DNA from: Dehalobacter restrictus DSM 9455
GTDB lineage: Bacteria; Bacillota; Desulfitobacteriia; Desulfitobacteriales; Syntrophobotulaceae
NCBI RefSeq assembly: GCF_000512895.1
Contig: NZ_CP007033.1
Span: 1,165,001 to 1,229,000, forward strand
Length of the DNA stretch: 64,000 nt
Direction: 5' to 3'
The notes below the pieces were generated by a model, which was not told where the DNA came from, ran no database searches, and saw only the letters and a list, made by a program, of their open reading frames with translations. Positions 41,666-61,615 of the stretch are shown piece by piece (the stretch's first letter is position 1; the number at the start of each line of letters is the position of its first letter). The position numbers were made by a program, and so were the translations under genes.

Positions 41666-42021
41666 GATTGCGGTTTGACGCTTACACCGCATGATATGTT
41701 GTCAAGCCTCTCGGCGTTAATCTTCGATATCAAATAATTTCTGGATTTGAAGAGGCTCTATCATAACTTGAGCGGTGCAGCCATGCACAGATCACAGCTC
41801 TCCCGTTCCCGCAGCTAAAAAACTCTGCAACAACAGATAAAATTCTATATGGATGTTATATCGGGGAATTTGCATAGTCCTTCTTGTATGCTTCTGATTC
41901 CTTACAATTTATTCATAGGCAGAGAGATCTATTATGTTTCTGTCCATATCCTTTAGCCGTAAGGCTTGATGCTGATACCGAATACATAATTGGAAAATTT
42001 ATTATATGTATGCGCATACTC
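41666..42021. other. Intergenic region, no gene seen
   Basis: 356 bp between the convergent malic enzyme and PucR-type genes. I see no open frame with a ribosome site and no strong terminator hairpin. Confidence 0.5.
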
Positions 42022-43578
42022 TTAGTTTTTATTTGTTAATATCAAACAAGTTATATATAAAATCAAGAATTGTTCTTCATTTATCTCTCTTAAATCAGTT
42101 TCCAAAATATCTTCGATTCTGTTAATTCTATACATCAATGTATTTCTGTGAATGTATAGATTTTTAGCAGTTTGTGAAATGTTGCATCCACTTAAAAGAT
42201 AGCTTCGTAAGGTTGTTAAGAGCATGTCGCCATTTTTTTTATCATAGGCAGAAATTTTGAGGATTTGCTGATTGCATAAACTTTTTAACCCAGTAGATTC
42301 ATTCAGTGAACTAATGATGTGTTTACTATAACATTCTTCAAAAAAACAATATCTTTTATGGGAAAAAGGCGCTCCTTCTTTTAATGCGGCTTTACTTTGT
42401 TTATAAGCATATTTTATACTCATAAAGTCGTAAAATTCCATGCTTATACCAGCGTTTACGTTCATTTCTGATAATAGTTTTTCAAATTCCTTAAAATCAG
42501 CTTCTCCTTCGCCTTCATAAACTAATTTATTTTCTTTTGTTTTTACGATTACAACAATTCCGTTTTCATATCTAAATAAAATACAGTTTTTAAAAATTAC
42601 TTTCAGACGAAACATAATAAAGTAAAGTTCCTGATGAGACTTGGAAAGATCTTGTCCGCTTACATAAAAAAGCTTGAATGTATCATTCATTTTCCAACCT
42701 TGCTTCTTTAAGTAATACTCCACGATGCCCTCTTCAACAGAATACCCACTTAGTATTCGATCAATAAAATAAGGGATATCTCTATCGGGGATAGTAGTTT
42801 CTACGATATTTTCAAAATATATCCCCATCATCTTCGCAAAATAGGTAACAATTGAGCACTCTCCTTTTGTAAAATCACAATTTATGTCAGTTGCCCCTAA
42901 AAATCCATTCAGATGGTTTTGACTAAAAACAGGACCTAACAACCAGCAATTGTCTTGAAATTCTTTAGGAGGGCGAATAAGAAAACTGGAATCAGATCCT
43001 TCCAGTTTTTCATAAAACATGTTTCTATAAGTATCGGGAAAAATATCTACAGGAGCATATCCCTTCGTAAAGGCGGTTTTCCATATACTTCCTTCAATTG
43101 TTTTAGAATTCAAGACTCCACCTTGACCAATAAATTTAAATGAAATATCGAAAAGCGCAATCGGATTGGATAAAGGCTCTGCCCCTTTATCAAGGATGAT
43201 CTGGAGAGATTTGCGCTGTAAAATATATTCCATCATAGTTTCTCCCCAACAATTATACTTGTCAAAAATGTCCTGGATTTGTTGAAAAACGAGCTCTGAA
43301 TTAATATTTCCGTCTATGATAATTGCCTGATAACCGTAAGCCAGTATGGTACTTTTATCAATCTTACCTAATACAACAATGTTAAGTTTTTTTGGATTAA
43401 CATCTAGAGACGGGATTTCTTCAGGAAACAACAGATATAAATAATCCGTGGTGATGTTCTTTTGATCCAGAGGTAAACGTCGAACTCCGCATAAATTTAA
43501 CGGGAATTCATCATCTGCGATTATTTGAGGATGATACCGTTTTAATTCATCATAAAGAATAAAAATATTGATTTTCAT
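42022..43578 (-). CDS. PucR/CdaR-type transcriptional regulator
   Basis: 518 residues. The C-terminal 60 residues carry the PucR-type helix-turn-helix (LLSGCNISQTAKNLYIHRNTLMYRINRIEDIL), which defines the family. The N-terminal ~150 residues look like the purine-catabolism-regulator sensor module, and the middle contains a GGDEF-like CdaR linker domain. Such proteins activate catabolic or uptake genes in response to a small molecule. The gene reads away from the LysR and LigM-like genes, across a 546-bp region, and is a candidate regulator of that island. Confidence 0.88.
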   Translation of the reverse strand: MKINIFILYDELKRYHPQIIADDEFPLNLCGVRRLPLDQKNITTDYLYLLFPEEIPSLDVNPKKLNIVVLGKIDKSTILAYGYQAIIIDGNINSELVFQQIQDIFDKYNCWGETMMEYILQRKSLQIILDKGAEPLSNPIALFDISFKFIGQGGVLNSKTIEGSIWKTAFTKGYAPVDIFPDTYRNMFYEKLEGSDSSFLIRPPKEFQDNCWLLGPVFSQNHLNGFLGATDINCDFTKGECSIVTYFAKMMGIYFENIVETTIPDRDIPYFIDRILSGYSVEEGIVEYYLKKQGWKMNDTFKLFYVSGQDLSKSHQELYFIMFRLKVIFKNCILFRYENGIVVIVKTKENKLVYEGEGEADFKEFEKLLSEMNVNAGISMEFYDFMSIKYAYKQSKAALKEGAPFSHKRYCFFEECYSKHIISSLNESTGLKSLCNQQILKISAYDKKNGDMLLTTLRSYLLSGCNISQTAKNLYIHRNTLMYRINRIEDILETDLREINEEQFLILYITCLILTNKN

Positions 43579-43802
43579 AATCTTATCCTACCGTTCAACA
43601 TTCTGGTAAATTTTATCTGCCTTTTCAAGCCCAATTATTTCCAGCTCGCTTAACTGGCTTTCATATAAATCCTCCCTAACTAAATAAAAATAACAAGAAG
43701 CAGTATTATTCATTGATTTCTTTTGGCTCCTAGTGACTTTCAATTAGCCTTATTACTCAAAATGTTAATTCTTGTTTTAACTCCTTTATTGTGCTAAAGT
43801 AT

Positions 43803-43825
43803 ATGCATTCTAACAAAGAATGCAT
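43803..43825. promoter_or_regulatory. Hyphenated palindrome in the pucR-lysR intergenic region
   Basis: ATGCATTCT, 5 nt, AGAATGCAT: 9-bp perfect arms. Its position between two divergent regulators, about 225 bp upstream of the PucR-type gene start and 320 bp before lysR, suggests an operator. Confidence 0.4.
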
Positions 43826-43839
43826 CATAATGGAAATAA

Positions 43840-44064
43840 TCGTTTTATCGTTGGTTATGCAAAAATTTTATAAAAGACAAGTATAAAACTGTTAAGCGCT
43901 CTCCGCATAATATCCAATTATTACTCAGTACTGGTAAACCGTGGTATGTACTGGACGTTCATGCAGACGGCATGAGCCCGACACGCCGATTTTACTCCAC
44001 AAATTCTGAAAGGAGGCTAGTACATGATAATTGCAAGAAAAATTATAGCGTTGTATTATGGTAA
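43840..44064 (+). pseudogene. Possible remnant of an unidentified coding sequence
   Basis: Open frame of 74 codons with no start codon near its 5' end and a protein-like composition (GKPWYVLDVHADGMSPTRRF, about residues 33-52). GC content rises locally against AT-rich flanks. I do not recognise the family. It could be the C-terminal scrap of a deleted gene, or chance. Confidence 0.3.
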
Positions 44065-44077
44065 ATTTGGCATTTAA
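44024..44077 (+). CDS. 17-residue ORF with ideal ribosome site, leader-peptide-like
   Basis: AAAGGAGG, a 7-nt spacer, then ATG opens a frame encoding MIIARKIIALYYGKFGI, ending 47 bases before the lysR ATG. The peptide is basic and hydrophobic. It may be a leader peptide for the downstream regulator, or a leftover start of a deleted gene. Confidence 0.35.
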   Translation: MIIARKIIALYYGKFGI

Positions 44078-44124
44078 GCATACATCAGTATAATGAGAAC
44101 GAATAAAAATTGTGAGGTGATATT

Positions 44125-45002
44125 TTGAAGATTAGCTATATGCATGAATTTATCGCACTGGCTGAAAATCTGAACTATTCACACACCGCAGAGGAATTAT
44201 TCATATCACAACCAGCACTAAGCAGGCACATAACTGCGATTGAAACAGATATAGGGATTCAGCTACTTAAACGAACAAAACATAGCGTTGAGCTTACTCC
44301 AATGGGTATGATTGTAGTTAGTGAATTTAAAAAATTATTGAACAATATGAAAATTTACTTACTAAGGCTACGCTATTATCTTCCGGTTTTACAGGTAAAC
44401 TCAAGGTAGGGATGTTATACTACGCCAGTGATGAATATATAACTCCAATAATGAGATTTTTCAAAGAAAAATATCCTAATATTGAACTTTTAATATCATC
44501 CTATCAGCCAATGCAACTTATACAAGATTTATTAAATGATAAAATAGACGTTGGTCTTACTCTTCATGAGTACTTTCCACATGCTGACCGCCTAATTTTT
44601 CATGATATCCGCAGCGAAAAATTAGCTGTGATAGTTTCTGACAAACATCCCTTTTTCTCAAAGGAATCTGTTGACGTAGCTGATCTTGATGAACAACTAT
44701 TTATTTTCTTAGGTGACCAAGAGTGGCACAGATTTTGTGTTGAAAGATTATTAACAAACCACGGCATAGGCTTAAAGCATTTCACATTTACTGATCAGAT
44801 CGACACCGTTTCATTTACTATTAAAGAGACAAATGGAATATTTGTGGTACCTCACCATTTAAAAAGTATGTCCATCAGTAATACAGCATTCCTTGAAATA
44901 AACGATAGTGAATTCTTTATCGATATGGCACTTGCCTATAAGGTAACTAACAATAATGCTGCAATACCATTATTCATTAATAATGTAAATAAAATTTTCT
45001 AA
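44125..45002 (+). pseudogene. LysR-family transcriptional regulator (frameshifted)
   Basis: The first frame (44125-44409) is a normal LysR helix-turn-helix (FIALAENLNYSHTAEELF, SQPALSRHI). The second (44412-45002) is the substrate-binding domain, starting VGMLYYASDEY and continuing to a natural end. The lost junction is near 44350-44360: adding one A at ATGAAAATT gives ..NMKNLLTKATLLSSGFTGKLKVG.., the expected linker. As written the regulator is cut before its effector domain. It precedes the LigM-like genes on the same strand and was probably their regulator. Confidence 0.85.
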
Positions 45003-45069
45003 CTATTAAATCAACTTTCACAAGTGGGAAAGTAACGGTATTAATTTATAAAAGTCTAAGAAACAAAGG

Positions 45070-45121
45070 CCTATGATTGACAATCAGATAACGAGATGTC
45101 AAACATAGGGATTTTTTTTTG
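45070..45121 (+). terminator. Terminator after the LysR gene
   Basis: CCTATGATTGACA and TGTCAAACATAGG form a 13-bp stem (one mismatch) with a 14-nt loop, then a run of nine to ten T. The rest of 45003-45316 is AT-rich leader for the next gene. Confidence 0.85.
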
Positions 45122-45316
45122 AATTTCAAAATTTTTTTTTAACATTTTATTACAGGTTATTCAATATTCAATATATGCATAACCGGAAATAAAGAATAGT
45201 ATTTCCATTATTAATACGCATCACCTACAATAAAACTAAATCCGGATTTATAAATCGATTTCACTTTTTCATAAGAAAAAATACTAAGCTATGCCGTAAA
45301 AAGGAGGATCAATAAT

Positions 45317-46690
45317 ATGATAAAAGAAGACAGTGCAAATATGATAGAAAAGAGTTTTGATCACCACCCACTAATTCCTTATGATCCATCTGTCATGATC
45401 TACATCTCTGCAGGTGATGTCGTTCTGCCATATGAATACACCAACTGGATGGATGAGGTCGAGTCATGGAAAGATGGAGCTTATATCTCACACTCTCTTA
45501 ATCCACAGCCTACATGGCGTATCAAAGGCCCTGATGCGATCAAATACCTCTCTAGTGTGCTTGTTAACAACTTTGAAAAATTCCCCGTAGGCACGGCCAA
45601 ACATGCCATCATGTGCAACGAAAAAGGTTTGAACATGGGTGATGGTGTGATGCTACGACTCGATGAAGATGAATTTCTCTTTTATGAAATGGGAGCACTA
45701 TATATCGCCCACGTTTTCGAACAGGGCAACTGGAATGCGGTGGGTGAAGACCTGACCGGTACAAAGTTTATGTATCAAATTGCCGGCCCTCGCTCACTTG
45801 AGATCATCGAGGCGGCAGCCGGTAAAGACCTCCACGATATTCGCTTCTTGCACCACCGTAAAAGCAGTATAGCTGGGGTTGAAGTAAACGTCATACGAGT
45901 GGGTATGGCCGGTTCGCTAGCCTACGAGTTACATGGCGATGCTCAGTATGGCCGTGTTGTTTACAATCGTGTACTGGAAGCGGGGAAACCACTAGGGCTG
46001 AAGCGTATTGGTTTTCGCTCATATCTCATGAATCACACTGAGGACGGATTTCCACAGTTTGTTATACATTTTACTCACCCCTGGATAGTAGAGGATGAAA
46101 ACTTCGTTGCCAAGCTCAAGAAGCGTGGCGACGTAATTAGGTGTAACACTGCCTGTAGAGGGAGCATGGGGCCTGATATCCGGCTTCGCTTCTGTAACCC
46201 TGTCGAGCTTGGATGGGCCAACCGTATCAGCTTTAATCATGACTTTGTCGGCCGTGCGGCACTCGAAAAAGAAGTCGCAAATCCCCGCCGCAAGATGGTC
46301 ACGTTGGTTTGGAATGCAGAGGACATTCTTGATATCTATGCCTCCAAATTTAAGCCCGGCGAACCGTATGCCAACATTAACACTCCAATTCATAATCTCT
46401 ATGACGGCAATGGGATGACCTTATTTGCCGATCAGGTACTTAAGAATGGAAAACTGATCGGAATAAGCTCAGGGCGGTTATACAGCTACCATTTCCGACA
46501 GATGCTATCTCTCTGCACGATCGATGTGGAACACAGTGACATTGGCAACGAAGTAATCGTTCTATGGGGAGATCCTGGTACTAAACAGAAGGAAATACGA
46601 GCAACGGTATCTCGCTTCCCTTATTTTAATGAGAATCGTAATGAAAACATCGACGTAAACACAATCCCGAGATTGGCGAAGTACAAATAG
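45317..46690 (+). CDS. GcvT-fold methyltransferase resembling LigM O-demethylase, paralogue 1
   Basis: 457-residue protein of the aminomethyltransferase (GcvT) fold. It matches, from memory, landmarks of the tetrahydrofolate-dependent vanillate/3-O-methylgallate O-demethylase LigM: a RVGMAGSLAYELHG segment, NPVELGWANRISFNHDFVGR, VTLVWNAEDILDIYASKF, then YSYHFRQMLSLCTID and VIVLWGD. Length fits LigM (~470), not GcvT (~365). The expected role is moving a methyl group from a small substrate to tetrahydrofolate. The substrate is unknown, and an aromatic methoxyl group is only one option. AAAGGAGG precedes the ATG. Codon use is richer in rare-looking codons than the core genes. Confidence 0.8.
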   Translation: MIKEDSANMIEKSFDHHPLIPYDPSVMIYISAGDVVLPYEYTNWMDEVESWKDGAYISHSLNPQPTWRIKGPDAIKYLSSVLVNNFEKFPVGTAKHAIMCNEKGLNMGDGVMLRLDEDEFLFYEMGALYIAHVFEQGNWNAVGEDLTGTKFMYQIAGPRSLEIIEAAAGKDLHDIRFLHHRKSSIAGVEVNVIRVGMAGSLAYELHGDAQYGRVVYNRVLEAGKPLGLKRIGFRSYLMNHTEDGFPQFVIHFTHPWIVEDENFVAKLKKRGDVIRCNTACRGSMGPDIRLRFCNPVELGWANRISFNHDFVGRAALEKEVANPRRKMVTLVWNAEDILDIYASKFKPGEPYANINTPIHNLYDGNGMTLFADQVLKNGKLIGISSGRLYSYHFRQMLSLCTIDVEHSDIGNEVIVLWGDPGTKQKEIRATVSRFPYFNENRNENIDVNTIPRLAKYK

Positions 46691-46958
46691 ATAAACCTAC
46701 AATTAGCTGATCTTGGGGCGATAAGATTGCACCACCATCATACCGCCAGAAATCTTCAGGTGGTATGACGGTGGCTAACTTATTATTTTGGCGAATCCAA
46801 TCATAGTACTCCTTGCCGTTCCGTAAGAGCGTAATTATCGCAGGAATCAGTAGTATCTGTGTTAATGAAATTTTCTGAGCTCTTATTGTACAATAGTGCT
46901 GAAATTTCTTGGTTATTATTCTCCATTTATTTACGATGAAATGGAGAGTCTCTATCAT
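46691..46958 (-). pseudogene. Possible gene fragment between the two LigM-like genes
   Basis: A minus-strand open frame covers most of this 357-bp gap and runs on into the 3' end of the upstream gene. It encodes segments that look protein-like (KEYYDWIRQNNKLATVIPPE, DFWRYDGGAILSPQDQ). No good ribosome site is seen. It may be a remnant of an unrelated gene or chance. The right part of the gap, to 47047, is the AT-rich leader of the next gene. Confidence 0.3.
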
Positions 46959-47047
46959 TATAATCTACATAAGCAAGTATTTAAAACGATGCTGTGATTG
47001 CAAAGTTAATTTGCTAAAAAAATTAAAATTAAAGGGAGGAATACAAA

Positions 47048-48496
47048 ATGTACGAAAACTACAAAAATCAGCATCCCATCGATACCACCGCACTTGATGC
47101 AGAGCACGATGTCAGTTATAGCAGTGGACCGTTTGCACTATCTACACCCGGAGGCGGCCTTTATAAGATGGGAGTATTTCCATATCTCATGCCTGTCTGG
47201 CATACGGATTGGAGGGATGAAGCATTATCCTGGCACTTGACGTGTTCATTGCACGCAGGTTTGAATCCTTCAGTGGTAACGATCCTTCGAGGCCCGGAAG
47301 CGAAAAAGTTCATGAGCGAAAACTTTGTCAATAATGTGGAGGATTTCCCCATCGGTATTATAAAGCATGGAATTTTGTGCCTCGAGAACGGGCTTATCGC
47401 GACACATGGCGTTATTATGCGTACCGGCGAGGAAGAATATGAGTTATGGTGGCACGCTCCGTACCTCAACTATCTATTCGGCCTTAAGGATTACAATGCA
47501 GAACTGATAGATATGACAATGAAAGTCTTTATTTTACAGCTTCAGGGCCCAAACTGCCTGTCAATTCTTGAGGAAGCTACCGGCGAAGATTTGAAGGACA
47601 TTGACTATCGCCATTACCGCAATAGTACGATTAATGGTCATAAAGTACGTATTCTCCGTTTTGGCATGGCGGGTACACTTTCCTATGAGGTTCATGGGGA
47701 GGCCCAATACTCTAAAGAAATCCAAAAGAAATTAATCGAGATCGGCAACCCTTATGGTATTCGACAACTTGGATTCTCCAACTATTTATTGAATCATAGC
47801 GAAGGCGGAAACTTCCAAGCCAATCTCAGCTTCATGTCTGCTTTGTTCCTGGATGAAGGGTTCCAGAAGTGGTCTAAGCAGGGCTCAGACGAAGGAGAAG
47901 GAGAAGGAGAAGGAGAAGGAGAACTCAACTATTCTTCATTCGGCTTTGACTTTAAAGGCAGCGCCGGCGGCGATCCCATGAAAGTGGTGTTCAATCCAAT
48001 CGAATGTGGACTTGGCAAGTGTATTAACTGGAACCATGATTTCCGCGGGAAAGCAGCTTTACTGGAATACAAAAAAAATCAGAAGCGTGACATTGTGACG
48101 CTTGAATGGAACGCCGAGGATATCATCGATGTTTATGCTTCAAACTTCCGACCGGGTGAAGAGAACTACAGCCCGATGGATTTCCCTGGACCTGAATCAA
48201 TGCTCAACGGCTCTGCCAATTGGGTATTATCGACAGACTACGTTTACAATAAAGACGGAAAAGAAATCGGGCTTTCAACAAGCCGTACGCAGAGTCATTA
48301 CTATCGGACAGTAATTTCAATGGCACTGCTTGATCTGGAGTATCGGGATTTTGGCACAGAGGTTTATGTACTCTGGGGCGAGGTTGGATCACGGCAGAAG
48401 AAAATACGCGCTAAAGTTTCATACTACCCGTACAACCGGGACAATAAGGACCGCACGGGGGATCAGGTCGATGTAAGAAGCCTTTCATCACGTTAA
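47048..48496 (+). CDS. GcvT-fold methyltransferase resembling LigM O-demethylase, paralogue 2
   Basis: 482 residues, clearly homologous to the protein at 45317: LRFGMAGTLSYEVHGEAQYS, NPIECGLGKCINWNHDFRGK, VTLEWNAEDIIDVYASNFRPG and YVLWGEVG are shared positions. It has an extra N-terminal ~25 residues and an acidic insert (residues ~282-291, five Gly-Glu pairs) between the folate-binding core and the C-terminal domain. AGGGAGG precedes the ATG. Tandem paralogues could form a heteromer or act on different methyl donors. Confidence 0.8.
   Translation: MYENYKNQHPIDTTALDAEHDVSYSSGPFALSTPGGGLYKMGVFPYLMPVWHTDWRDEALSWHLTCSLHAGLNPSVVTILRGPEAKKFMSENFVNNVEDFPIGIIKHGILCLENGLIATHGVIMRTGEEEYELWWHAPYLNYLFGLKDYNAELIDMTMKVFILQLQGPNCLSILEEATGEDLKDIDYRHYRNSTINGHKVRILRFGMAGTLSYEVHGEAQYSKEIQKKLIEIGNPYGIRQLGFSNYLLNHSEGGNFQANLSFMSALFLDEGFQKWSKQGSDEGEGEGEGEGELNYSSFGFDFKGSAGGDPMKVVFNPIECGLGKCINWNHDFRGKAALLEYKKNQKRDIVTLEWNAEDIIDVYASNFRPGEENYSPMDFPGPESMLNGSANWVLSTDYVYNKDGKEIGLSTSRTQSHYYRTVISMALLDLEYRDFGTEVYVLWGEVGSRQKKIRAKVSYYPYNRDNKDRTGDQVDVRSLSSR
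47891..47920 (+). repeat. Hexanucleotide tandem repeat (GAAGGA)x5 inside a gene
   Basis: Five exact GAAGGA units encode alternating Glu-Gly pairs in the second LigM-like protein. Changes in unit number would stay in frame and vary the acidic linker by two residues per unit. Confidence 0.9.
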
Positions 48497-48870
48497 ACAG
48501 AAGCTAAAGTTCTTCGGAGATCCAGAAATACGTCAGATGGGAGAGAGCAACGGATGCAAAATATCCATATAACAATGTCGGGTGTAGTAAGGATGTTGAT
48601 TTAAATAATATTCCAAGATCCTAAAAGCAAAGCAAACTTTCTGTAACCTATACATTTGAATAGATATTAATATCAGTCTTTGTATAACTAATGCTCTCGA
48701 AGTCCGATGTCAAATTCAGGGGAGCTGGAAACGGTCAAAGGTAGGATTGAAATTTTTGAGTCTAAGAGCAAACTAATTATCCAGCTCCTCTATGCATCAA
48801 TAATTATCACTCTAAATAGGAAGAAATACTATGGCATCTATATTCATCTAACTTGCCATAAATTGTCTAA

Positions 48871-48927
48871 AAGCCCGTTGTTCATGCGGGCTTGCTCTTT
48901 TAAGCAGGAATTTTTCCTGCTTTTTTT
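48871..48927 (+). terminator. Double hairpin terminator
   Basis: AAGCCCG-8 nt-GCGGGCTT (48871-48892), then AAGCAGGAA-TTT-TTCCTGCTT plus T5 (48903-48927). The second is a strong intrinsic terminator about 400 bases after the second LigM-like gene. Nothing else recognisable lies in 48497-48870; a short open frame there has no ribosome site. Confidence 0.8.
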
Positions 48928-48966
48928 AGCGGCGTTTTATGGTCATGATATAATTGGCGATTATAC

Positions 48967-49010
48967 ATAAGTCAAAACAATTGAATACATATTCAATTGT
49001 TTTGACTTAT
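48967..49010. repeat. 44-nt perfect inverted repeat
   Basis: ATAAGTCAAAACAATTGAAT, ACAT loop, and the exact reverse complement. 20-bp arms without mismatch, no T run. It lies 84 bases before the DUF3102 start, so it may be an operator, a cruciform site or an old insertion footprint. Confidence 0.85.
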
Positions 49011-49093
49011 AAAAGTTAAGCATTACGAAATTTCACCGGGAAAGTTTTGATACCATATGATACAGAATATATACAACCGAAAGGAATGTAAAA

Positions 49094-50014
49094 ATGGAGA
49101 GCACGCCAACTGAAAGAACGCCGGCTGTCGTCGCCGGGGAAATCGCTGCCATCAAAGCACAAACAAGAAAGATATTGCTTGTCAGCGCGGTTGAAGTCGG
49201 ACGGCGCTTGATGGAAGCCAAGGAAATGATCCCTTATGGGGAATTTTGCAAATGGCTGGAGGAAGCCGTTGATTACTCAGAGCGTGTAGCATATAAACTG
49301 ATGCGCATCGCCGAAGAGTATGGACCGGGGCTGTCCGTACTATCCGAAGCCGATGTGAGTAATGTGCCTTTTGCCAGACTTGGTTACAGCCAGGCATTCG
49401 CCCTTTTGGGGATCCCCGCGGAGGAACGGGCGGAGTTTATCGCGCAGCTAGATATTGAGCATATGTCGGTGAGCGCACTGCAGCAGGTGATCAAGGACAG
49501 GAACGAGGCTCTTGAAGAGAAAACAGCGCTGGCCAAAAAACTGAAGATCCATCAAGACAAAGTTTCCGGCTTAGCTGAGGAGCGCGATCAGGCGAAAAAA
49601 GAGGCGGAGGCTAAAGAACAGGCATTATGGAGTGAGCAGAGCAGGGTAACGCAGCTGCAGCGGGAGCTGACAGTGCTTCAGAACGACAGTGTGGCCGCCC
49701 GGCGTATGAAAGAGATCGAACGGGAGCGCGATATAGCCAAGATCAACCATGCCATGGCACAGGCCGACGCCCGCTACGATCTAATCGTCAAAGGATTCGA
49801 CGACCTGTTCAGCACGATCAGGGAGATGGCTGGAGCAGATCCTAATGCTTACAAGCTGTTTGTTAATCAAACAAGTGAGTTTATCGCAAAGACGGCGCGT
49901 AAGTTAAAACGTATCAAAAAAAATGACACAAACGGCACCGACAGAACAGGCGGTTCCCGAGGCTCCTGCTCCCGAAACACCATGATTTTAAGGAAGAACC
50001 TCCCAGCCGGCTAA
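49094..50014 (+). CDS. DUF3102 family protein
   Basis: 306 residues. The N-terminal ~130 match DUF3102 (IAAIKAQTRKILLVSAVEVGRRLMEAKE then GEFCKWLEEAVDYSERVAYKLMRIAEEYG), a helical domain common on Firmicute chromosomes and mobile elements. A long charged coiled coil follows (about 140-225), then a basic, low-complexity end. The function is unknown; the domain resembles DNA-binding or phage-associated proteins. The stop lies inside the terminator hairpin. AAAGGAA is upstream. Confidence 0.82.
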   Translation: MESTPTERTPAVVAGEIAAIKAQTRKILLVSAVEVGRRLMEAKEMIPYGEFCKWLEEAVDYSERVAYKLMRIAEEYGPGLSVLSEADVSNVPFARLGYSQAFALLGIPAEERAEFIAQLDIEHMSVSALQQVIKDRNEALEEKTALAKKLKIHQDKVSGLAEERDQAKKEAEAKEQALWSEQSRVTQLQRELTVLQNDSVAARRMKEIERERDIAKINHAMAQADARYDLIVKGFDDLFSTIREMAGADPNAYKLFVNQTSEFIAKTARKLKRIKKNDTNGTDRTGGSRGSCSRNTMILRKNLPAG

Positions 50015-50032
50015 GTCGGCGGAGGTTCTTCC
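49992..50032. terminator. Bidirectional terminator
   Basis: GGAAGAACCTCC and GGAGGTTCTTCC (12-bp arms) with an inner GCCG/CGGC stem. It lies between the convergent DUF3102 and DUF2922 genes and overlaps the DUF3102 stop. Confidence 0.8.
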
Positions 50033-50066
50033 AACGGGGCTTCCCCCAGGTTGCTGCGGTTATCGC

Positions 50067-50306
50067 TTACGCTTCCGGAGGATCGTAAAGATCATCCGTT
50101 TCCGTATTGATAACTTTAATATCCCGTTTAGCGGCCAAAGCGCCGCTCGCAGTGATGAATACGTCCTTCGTGATGAGTATATCCATCACGGCTTCAGCCT
50201 CAGCCTTCGTCAAGCCTGTTTTCGGATTGGTCAGGGTGATTGCGAATGTCTTGCCCCCGCTGGTTAAGAACGTTAAGCGCACGACTTTATTTGTGGTAAC
50301 CGCCAT
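50067..50306 (-). CDS. DUF2922 family small protein
   Basis: 79 residues matching DUF2922 (VVRLTFLTSGGKTFAITLTNPKTGLTKAEAEAVMD ending). DUF2922 and DUF1659 genes often lie together in Firmicutes. Their function is unknown. It is 38 bases downstream of the DUF1659 gene, so they form a two-gene operon. Confidence 0.85.
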   Translation of the reverse strand: MAVTTNKVVRLTFLTSGGKTFAITLTNPKTGLTKAEAEAVMDILITKDVFITASGALAAKRDIKVINTETDDLYDPPEA

Positions 50307-50344
50307 TGCGTCTCACCTCCTTGTCTATCCGCTTTGGCTGCCGG

Positions 50345-50569
50345 TTATTCATCCGCCAGCTCCGAATTGCTGCTCAAGACCACTTCCAATACCTGATCCT
50401 GCACTAGGCTGAATAAGGCTGTTGCCACGTCATAGGCATCTTGGATCGTGGCATCGGCTCTTACGCCGCTGAAACTTTTCTTTCTGGTCACCGGGTCACC
50501 GGCAGGCGTTACCCCGGACTCGCATGTTACGACCAGCGTAGAAGTTAATGGTGTAGCAGTAACCGCCAT
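50345..50569 (-). CDS. DUF1659 family small protein
   Basis: 74 residues: TATPLTSTLVVTCESGV, KKSFSGVRADATIQDAYDVA and a short hydrophobic middle fit DUF1659. The third in-frame ATG (50569) is chosen, nine bases after AAAGGAG; the two earlier ATGs touch that site. It is the first gene of the pair with DUF2922. Function unknown. Confidence 0.82.
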   Translation of the reverse strand: MAVTATPLTSTLVVTCESGVTPAGDPVTRKKSFSGVRADATIQDAYDVATALFSLVQDQVLEVVLSSNSELADE

Positions 50570-50578
50570 CTCCATCAT

Positions 50579-51238
50579 CTCCTTTCCGGTTTATATGACA
50601 GGCCGGCTTGTCCAGCTTATCGGTTTATTTTATGCCGGTGTTTGTCCGATGGTGACAGCCGGATTATGTCATAAGCGGTTTACCGGAAACAGCAGGAGCA
50701 GGGCATATCTTATTGGCCACTTTACCTTAGGCGGTATATTTACGGTTCTTTTCTTATGCTAAAGTGTATGCAATTACAACAAATGCGCATATCTCAGGTT
50801 ATTTGTCAATAGTAAGATGCCCTTTCCGTTTCGACAAACTTAGAAACAATATGAAACTATTTGACCAAGGAATTCAAAGCAATACAGAGAATATCTTTAA
50901 CGTTAGCGTAAAGCCTTTTTCTGAATGACGTATGGCAATGCGTTGTCATGGCTGGCGACCAGATCGCCTGGAACAGAAAAAAGGCCCAAGTCAGGACAGG
51001 AAGATTGAAAGGAGGTATGTCAGGCGGTCAGGAAGTGCTTAAGCGGCCGGGAGTCATCGATAGCAGCAAACGAGCAATTTCTTGCAGGAGTGGTATTTGG
51101 CTGAATACTGCTGGTCGTAAGAGCCTGAGTGTCGGGCAGTCAATCTTCAGAATTGGTTTGGTTAGGAAAAATTCAAAATTAAAAAAGTCTGCCTGAGGTT
51201 AATCCGGTCGGAAATGGCAGACTCAACAAAAGGAGCCC
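50579..51238. other. Intergenic region left of the insertion sequence
   Basis: 660 bp. An open frame starting at 50595 (+) would encode a 55-residue two-helix peptide but has no ribosome site. A frame at 50948 (+) is not protein-like. A hairpin AGTCTGCC / GGCAGACT spans 51186-51222. AAAAGGAGCC at 51229-51238 is the left half of a terminator interrupted by the insertion sequence. Confidence 0.5.
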
Positions 51239-51372: not shown

Positions 51373-52842
51373 ATGATAAAGAAACAAACAAGCCTGGCCT
51401 TAAGTCCCTATATGGGCATATACGATTTGATCATACCCAAAGATAATTTATTGCGACAGATGAACGAATTAGTGGATTTTAATTTTATCTACGACGAGTT
51501 GGTTAATGTCTATTGTCAAAATAATGGACGAGGTGCAATAGATCCAGTTCGGATGTTCAAATACCTTTTACTAAAAAGCATTTTCGACATATCAGATGTT
51601 GATGTGGTGGAGCGATCAAAATACGATATGTCATTTAAATATTTTCTTGATATGACACCGGAAGAAGAAGTCATTGACCCCAGTTCACTGACCAAGTTCA
51701 GAAAGCTACGGCTCAAAGATACAAACCTGCTGGATCTATTGATCCAAAAAACAGTTGGAATCGCTTTGGAAAAAGGTATTATAAAAAGCAAAGCCATCAT
51801 AGTAGATTCTACCCATACCCAGGCAAGATACAATCAAAAATCACCTCGGGAGCATTTAATAGAATGTTCTAAGAGGCTACGCAAAGCCGTCTATGCCATA
51901 GATGATAAGATGAAAGAGCAATTCCCGGCAAAAGTTAATAATGGCTTACTGGAAGATGAACTAGCGTATTGCCAAAAACTAATAACGGTCATTGAAAACG
52001 CAGAACACATTTCCGGTTACCCTGCTGTAAGAGAAAAACTAAATATGCTAAAAGAAGTGGTTGAGGATGACCATGAACAATTAGCCTTAATGTCAAAGGA
52101 TGCCGATGCCAAAATGGGTCATAAAACAGCGGATACAGCCTTTTTCGGATATAAAACTCATCTAGCCATGACGGAAGAACGGATCATAACTGCCGCAGTT
52201 GTTACATCAGGAGAAAAACATGACGGGAAACAACTTCAGGCCCTGGTAGAAAAAAGTGAACAAGCAGGAATTGAAGTTACAGATATCATTGGTGATGCAG
52301 CCTATTCCGAAAAAGATAACATCGTATATACGAAAGAAAATAACATCAATCTGGTTTCTAAGCTGAGTAAAACAGTGACACATCAACAATCGAACCGAAT
52401 AAATCCCAATATATTTGAATTTAATAAAGATTGTCAGATGTATGTTTGTCAGGCTGGACATATGAGCTTTAAAAAGACAAGCACCCGGCCTAAAAAACAT
52501 GCTAAAGACGGTACAGGAACGGTAGAATCCTACTTATTCGACGTGGAAAAATGCAAAATCTGCCCCTATAAAGCAGGCTGCTATAAAGACGGGGCAAAAA
52601 CCAAAACATATTCTGTAACGATAAAACACCACACGCATGAAGAACAGGCCATATTTCAGGATAGCGAATATTTCAAAGAAAAGTCAAAGGAACGTTACAA
52701 AATTGAGGCAAAAAACAGCGAGCTAAAACATAGACATGGGTATGGTGTTGCATCTGCTTCAGGCATATTTGGTATGCAGCTACAAGCGGCGACCACAATA
52801 TTTGCTGTTAATTTAAAAAGAATTATAACTTTAATGGGTTAA
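51373..52842 (+). CDS. tnp: IS1182-family transposase
   Basis: 489 residues. The N-terminal DUF772-like domain (PVRMFKYLLLKSIFDISDVDVVERSKYDMSF-type region) precedes a DDE catalytic core with first Asp in IIVDSTHTQARYN, second in DIIGDAAYSEKDN and a late Glu in the KIEAKNSELKHRHG region. A Cys pair group (CKICPYKAGCYK) resembles the zinc-like knot of this family. The frame is uninterrupted. It is the only gene in the element. Confidence 0.93.
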   Translation: MIKKQTSLALSPYMGIYDLIIPKDNLLRQMNELVDFNFIYDELVNVYCQNNGRGAIDPVRMFKYLLLKSIFDISDVDVVERSKYDMSFKYFLDMTPEEEVIDPSSLTKFRKLRLKDTNLLDLLIQKTVGIALEKGIIKSKAIIVDSTHTQARYNQKSPREHLIECSKRLRKAVYAIDDKMKEQFPAKVNNGLLEDELAYCQKLITVIENAEHISGYPAVREKLNMLKEVVEDDHEQLALMSKDADAKMGHKTADTAFFGYKTHLAMTEERIITAAVVTSGEKHDGKQLQALVEKSEQAGIEVTDIIGDAAYSEKDNIVYTKENNINLVSKLSKTVTHQQSNRINPNIFEFNKDCQMYVCQAGHMSFKKTSTRPKKHAKDGTGTVESYLFDVEKCKICPYKAGCYKDGAKTKTYSVTIKHHTHEEQAIFQDSEYFKEKSKERYKIEAKNSELKHRHGYGVASASGIFGMQLQAATTIFAVNLKRIITLMG

Positions 52843-60976: not shown

Positions 60977-61615
60977 GTGGTGGATTTGAAAGTCCTGACT
61001 CAAGCGATGTCCGATTTGGACGAAGACGTGCTAAACAAGGCCATTGATGAAGTACTAAGTAAAGACGACAATGCCGCAGAAGCTCAAGAAGTTGTTAAAG
61101 CTTGTCAGCAAGGTATGACACTCGTAGGTGAACGCTATGATTCGGGCGAGTACTTTATTGGAGATTTGGTCTTCGCCGGGGAAGTGTTGCAAAGTGTAAT
61201 GGACAAGCTCAAACCGGCTTTAAGTGCAGGTTCCTCAGCAAAAGGCGGAAAGATTGTTTTAGCTACAGTCTTTGGAGATATTCATGACATAGGCAAAAAT
61301 ATTTTCAGATCCGTGGCTGAAGCCGCGAGTTTTGAGGTGATCGACCTGGGGATCAATGTTCCGGTTAACCAGATCGTGGACAAGGTAAAAGAGGTTAACC
61401 CTGATATTATAGGATTAAGCGGCGTACTGACTTTGGCGCTGGATAGTAAGAAAGAAACAGTTAATGCGCTTAATGAAGCAGGCCTTAGAAATTCAGTTAA
61501 GGTGATTATCGGCGGAGTACCCGTTAATGAGAATGTATGTAAAAGTATAGGTGCCGATGCCTTTTCGACAAACGCAGCTGAAGGTGTAAAAATATGCCAG
61601 AGATGGGTGGGTTGA
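60977..61615 (+). CDS. Corrinoid protein of a methyltransferase system (MtaC/MtvC-like)
   Basis: 212 residues. A helical N-terminal cap (about 1-85) is followed by a B12-binding Rossmann domain with the lower-ligand motif GDIHDIGKN (D-x-H-x-x-G, His ligand to cobalt) and GLSGVLTLALDS, plus VIIGGVPVN. Such proteins carry a methyl group from a substrate-specific methyltransferase to a second enzyme. GTG start behind GGAGG. Its normal partners are missing or broken: only a tail of a UroD-type methyltransferase follows, so the protein may be orphaned. Confidence 0.92.
   Translation: MVDLKVLTQAMSDLDEDVLNKAIDEVLSKDDNAAEAQEVVKACQQGMTLVGERYDSGEYFIGDLVFAGEVLQSVMDKLKPALSAGSSAKGGKIVLATVFGDIHDIGKNIFRSVAEAASFEVIDLGINVPVNQIVDKVKEVNPDIIGLSGVLTLALDSKKETVNALNEAGLRNSVKVIIGGVPVNENVCKSIGADAFSTNAAEGVKICQRWVG

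Follow-up and report, generated by a model that had tools for sequence, protein, structure and literature searches.

The stretch of DNA analysed, further referred to as the window, covers 64,000 nucleotides of the Dehalobacter restrictus genome, which is a single contig of 2,943,336 bases. It contains two genes, ORF1 and ORF2, located on the same strand and separated by 357 bp (Table 1). Both frames are open, are directly preceded by ribosome-binding sites (aaaggagg for ORF1 and aaagggagg for ORF2) and match the Pfam domain GCV_T (7e-33 and 1e-25, respectively), so the two GcvT-fold genes reported in the earlier note are real. The same holds for its description of the neighbouring regulators: the LysR-type gene is broken by a frameshift, and a PucR-type gene is encoded nearby. 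Within ORF2 there is a perfect tandem repeat of the hexanucleotide GAAGGA (5.5 copies) encoding the loop EGEGEGEGEGE. The loop is modelled with low confidence, and a change in the number of repeat copies would keep the frame.

Table 1. Features of the locus (positions in the window)
Feature	Position	Strand	Remarks
Strain-specific island	41668..50810	.	~9 kb; holds ORF1, ORF2 and the PucR and LysR genes; flanks ~430 bp apart in genome G005
PucR-type regulator (HTH_30)	42022..43578	-	belongs to the family of regulators found next to related genes
LysR-type regulator	44125..45002	+	frameshifted; HTH half 44125-44409, effector half 44412-45002
ORF1	45317..46690	+	457 aa; predicted GcvT-fold tetrahydrofolate-dependent C1 transferase, apparently of a SesA-type clade
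ORF2	47048..48496	+	482 aa; divergent paralogue of ORF1
GAAGGA repeat	47891-47923		within ORF2
Transposase-like ORF	51373-52842		IS1182-like by eye
Corrinoid protein	60977-61615		MtbC/MtgC-like

Island and host genome

The flanks of the island lie ~0.8 kb apart in genome G006. Genomes G003 and G004 have other DNA (~12 kb and ~3 kb, respectively) at this site and lack ORF1 and ORF2. The G+C content equals 46% in ORF1 and ORF2 and 32–33% in the PucR and LysR genes, hence the island is a mosaic. The transposase-like ORF is flanked by two blocks that are almost contiguous in G003–G005. The MtbC/MtgC-like corrinoid protein is encoded alone, ~12 kb from ORF1/ORF2; none of its neighbours in the window is a methyltransferase gene.

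For reductive dehalogenases, the genome gives 22 strong matches above the cut-off of TIGR02486, mostly grouped in two clusters; matches to PF13486 are weak. MetF (MTHFR) is encoded four times, including copies at 1.01 and 0.86 Mb. Only three GCV_T proteins were found in the whole genome, namely ORF1, ORF2 and a third paralogue at 2.11 Mb (ORF3), with neither GcvP nor a canonical GcvT. ORF3 is 85% identical to a protein from Candidatus Formimonas warabiya. We rejected the reading of ORF3 as one more copy of this enzyme, since it belongs to a third clade, and the catalytic-type Tyr and the Asp are replaced by V and E, respectively. In the locus containing ORF3 (L010, 5126–12152, corresponding to G000:C1 ~2.106–2.113 Mb) we observed an apparent same-strand run of ORF3, two MFS transporters, a corrinoid protein, MetF and an FMN reductase.

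Placement among GcvT-fold proteins and active-site residues

The GCV_T domain, the three-domain fold and a folate-binding Glu (E204 in ORF1, E214 in ORF2) place both proteins among GcvT-fold tetrahydrofolate C1 transferases. Their top NCBIfam models are LigM and DesA (211 and 205 bits for ORF1, 165 and 155 bits for ORF2), far above GcvT and DmdA. Nevertheless, both proteins fall below the curated cut-offs of these models (580 bits for LigM, 800 for DesA), while proteins passing the LigM cut-off in the searched genomes score 620–922 bits; the DmdA model yields 41 and 43 bits against a cut-off of 410. LigM is also the nearest solved structure in PDB by sequence (E-values 2e-47 for ORF1 and ~7e-31 for ORF2). 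The AlphaFold models, which are confident (pLDDT 94 for ORF1 and 85 for ORF2), superimpose on LigM over 388–395 residues at 2.2–2.8 Å with ~32% (ORF1) and 26% (ORF2) identity, and on GcvT over ~350 residues at ~2 Å with 20–24% identity (for ORF1, Z ~42 over 351 residues, 20%).

Phylogenetic trees were built for 125 rows and then, more carefully, for 68 rows. ORF1 and ORF2 fall in one clade (support 100 in the 125-row tree and 99/100 in the 68-row tree), and LigM proteins form a separate one (98 and 96/92, respectively). GcvT is separated from ORF1/ORF2 with support 100/100 in the 68-row tree. Forcing ORF1/ORF2 together with LigM was rejected (AU p 3e-16). By these sequence comparisons, the ORF1/ORF2 clade, which has been little studied, is beside the LigM clade, not within it. 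Thus, orthology to LigM was ruled out by the model scores, the loss of substrate residues described below and the AU test. Identity with GcvT was ruled out as well, because the genome lacks a glycine cleavage system, and ORF1/ORF2 form a separate clade; the tree proposed in the earlier note as a check sets both proteins outside GcvT, with the folate/catalytic-type residues E204 and Y236 kept.

The identity between ORF1 and ORF2 is 37%. The closest relatives of ORF1 are proteins of genomes G034 and G460 (54% identity), and that of ORF2 comes from a Coriobacteriales MAG (L058, 42%). Forcing ORF1 and ORF2 as sisters was rejected more weakly (AU p 0.013), ORF2 being a long branch. A recent tandem duplication was therefore discarded with this reservation, and the pair, called tandem paralogues in the earlier note, are not close tandem duplicates.

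The putative active site of ORF1 comprises K95, H96, D109, R114, R194, E204, Y236 and H240. ORF2 has the same set, with H at the position of D109, and its Glu and Tyr are E214 and Y246. The equivalents of LigM R205, E215 and Y247 are retained in both proteins; that of D106 is retained in ORF1 and replaced by H in ORF2. In contrast, LigM Q57, H60, M61, R122 and W256 (residues taken from the PDB chain) are replaced by S, P, Q, M and F in ORF1 and by G, P, S, H and N in ORF2. We take the latter five to be substrate residues, and E215 and Y247 to be of the folate/catalytic type. Two His of the clade (H96 and H240 in ORF1) stand where LigM has Q93 and T251. H240 and E204 are found in all 58 clade rows tallied, Y236 in 57 of them.

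A different known enzyme has a similar set of residues, namely the sesamin-cleaving demethylenase SesA; activity of this type gives 5,10-methylene-tetrahydrofolate. For SesA, PMC5547118 reports R81, H82, R100, R179, H225, D95, E189 and Y221. Seven of these eight are in register in ORF1 (K for R81), with spacing within one residue, and six in ORF2 (K for R81, H for D95), with exact spacing. All eight match in identity, and in number from the first Met, in an Arthrobacter protein of the same clade (L028), to which ORF1 and ORF2 are only ~40% identical. Since the signature of this protein matches the published pattern, SesA appears to belong to the ORF1/ORF2 clade. The K in place of R81, as well as the H of ORF2 where SesA D95 and LigM D106 stand, count against the likeness to SesA.

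Of the earlier suggestion that these are LigM-like enzymes in an anaerobe, several parts stand: the GcvT fold, a sequence nearer to LigM/DesA than to GcvT, the retained equivalents of E215 and Y247, and an obligately anaerobic host. Membership in the LigM clade does not, given the AU test, the lost substrate residues and the active-site pattern of SesA.

Relatives and their gene neighbourhoods

Relatives were found in Acetobacterium, Blautia, Fusibacter, Sporosalibacterium, Coriobacteriia, Candidatus Formimonas, Actinomycetota, Xanthomonas and haloarchaea, far outside the aerobic sphingomonads to which the earlier note had confined such genes. Their distribution is scattered: within the class, 6 of 83 genomes carry such a gene, and within the phylum, 5 of the 398 genomes sampled do. 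Judging by the lineages recovered, the clade is frequently met among anaerobes and gut bacteria. The search in other Firmicutes suggested earlier thus yielded related genes, e.g. in Acetobacterium, Blautia and Fusibacter; the same ORF1/ORF2 pair was not recovered among the loci read.

Of 43 loci assigned to anaerobic lineages by lineage name, 28 have a PucR-type gene of one family within 2.5 kb, versus none of the 34 other loci; in 23 loci it lies within 400 bp. As the sequences share ancestry, the Fisher test for this contrast is only indicative. LysR genes adjoin related genes at five loci (L016, L034, L074, L079 and L083). Within 2.5 kb at the 34 other loci, PurU is present in 12 and FolD in 7, and no MetF was seen near the members at these loci, among those read. 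In G460, PurU is located 61 bp 3' of the near relative of ORF1. Neighbouring PurU or FolD without MetF fits methylene-folate as the product. Genes for NmrA-type reductases neighbour members of the clade at several loci, and genes for a DMSO-reductase-type molybdoenzyme and an FeS subunit lie directly 5' of the nearest relative of ORF2; these neighbours fit aromatic or catechol metabolism.

The cobalamin independence proposed earlier is plausible for the reaction itself. However, corrinoid methyltransferase genes are located near the related loci in G034 and Acetobacterium, so in these hosts the enzyme would operate in parallel with the corrinoid pathway.

Proposed reaction and comparison with known systems

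We consider it probable that ORF1 and ORF2 encode two enzymes of a SesA-type clade, each with its own specificity, which use tetrahydrofolate without a corrinoid to strip a one-carbon unit (methylene or methyl) from plant-type aromatic dioxoles or ethers. Each protein would bind a methoxylated or methylenedioxy aromatic compound, the probable substrate class, beside folate, holding tetrahydrofolate through two conserved residues, a Glu (E204/E214) and a Tyr (Y236/Y246). The His/Arg set (H96, R114, R194 and H240 in ORF1) would protonate the leaving phenolate. The aromatic product would presumably be a free phenol or catechol, and the folate product methylene- or methyl-tetrahydrofolate, if the reaction runs in this direction, and the C1 unit would enter the folate pool. 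The PucR-type regulator, and formerly also LysR, may switch the genes on with the substrate. Further observations also count against this proposal. No transporter, PurU, FolD or aromatic-pathway gene adjoins ORF1/ORF2 in the window, and D. restrictus is reported to be an organohalide-respiring specialist (PMC4751268).

Aryl O-demethylation in the LigM sense, in which a phenyl methyl ether other than a vanillate-type carboxylate would donate its methyl group to form 5-methyl-tetrahydrofolate, seems to us unlikely. LigM and DesA are the top-scoring characterised models, the equivalents of Y247 and E215 are retained, and the apparent operon of ORF3 with MetF and a corrinoid protein in the same genome is what methyl-folate production would predict. 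However, ORF3 is of a different clade, the five LigM residues from Q57 to W256 are lost in ORF1/ORF2, the grouping with LigM is rejected, and in aerobes related genes adjoin PurU/FolD, not MetF.

A non-aromatic methyl or aminomethyl donor (methylamine, an N-methyl amino acid or a sulfonium compound), as used by DmdA or by the GcvT-fold domains of enzymes acting on sarcosine, dimethylglycine and TMAO, is improbable. The fold is shared with these families (VIA Z 32–42), and there are weak matches to the TmaoDeMthMsil and SoxA models, but these models give at most 93 bits for ORF1, and DmdA 41, versus 211 for LigM, and ORF1/ORF2 lack the oxidase or dehydrogenase domain of the sarcosine and dimethylglycine enzymes.

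The heteromer suggested in the earlier note, with ORF2 as a helper subunit having a degenerate site, is very improbable: the genes are adjacent on one strand and ORF2 has H at a conserved acidic position, but this H also occurs in members standing alone, ORF1-type and ORF2-type genes stand together at no other locus among those read, and paired genes elsewhere are drawn from varying subclades, so that a fixed heteromer is unlikely given the lack of both a recent duplication and a conserved pairing. Pairs mixing subclades seem to fit differing substrates better. As far as can be judged from sequence, each ORF most likely encodes an enzyme acting by itself, with tetrahydrofolate as the acceptor of a methyl or methylene group taken from an aryl ether or dioxole.

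Characterised anaerobic O-demethylases are mostly, if not all, cobalamin-dependent (PMC12915777, 2026), and the organohalide-respiring host needs added cobalamin (PMC4751268). We found no description of an anaerobic SesA- or LigM-like enzyme or of a PucR-linked branch in the literature searched, which consisted mainly of sources other than subscription journals. The chemistry itself is known from aerobes. Tentatively, anaerobes from Bacillota and Coriobacteriia may perform a PucR-controlled, corrinoid-independent opening of methylenedioxy rings or aryl demethylation onto tetrahydrofolate, for which the literature searched yielded no characterised anaerobic enzyme and which could be a C1 source in Dehalobacter. 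If so, a single-protein, folate-only clade in acetogens, gut Lachnospiraceae, Coriobacteriia and an organohalide respirer would constitute a second anaerobic route, and its members would be candidates for opening the methylenedioxy rings of lignans and alkaloids in the gut.

Compared with known systems, the T-protein of glycine cleavage (GcvT) shares the fold, but ORF1/ORF2 are outside its clade, in a genome without GcvP. The corrinoid O-demethylases of acetogens (MT-I, corrinoid protein, MT-II and activating enzyme) would likewise supply C1-folate from aryl ethers in anaerobes; these are multi-protein, cobalamin-dependent systems, and none of their genes adjoins ORF1/ORF2. The O-demethylases LigM, acting on vanillate and 3-O-methylgallate, and DesA, acting on syringate (NF047885, NF047633; PDB 5X1I-5X1N, 5TL4), share the fold, the length, E215, Y247 and R205 with both proteins and D106 with ORF1, but differ in clade, in the five replaced residues and in having Q93/T251 for H96/H240. 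SesA (no. 22; PMC5547118), compared by its published residues, differs from ORF1/ORF2, which have an anaerobic host and a PucR regulator; like them, it is GcvT-type and tetrahydrofolate-dependent, and its probable Arthrobacter orthologue falls in the ORF1/ORF2 clade.
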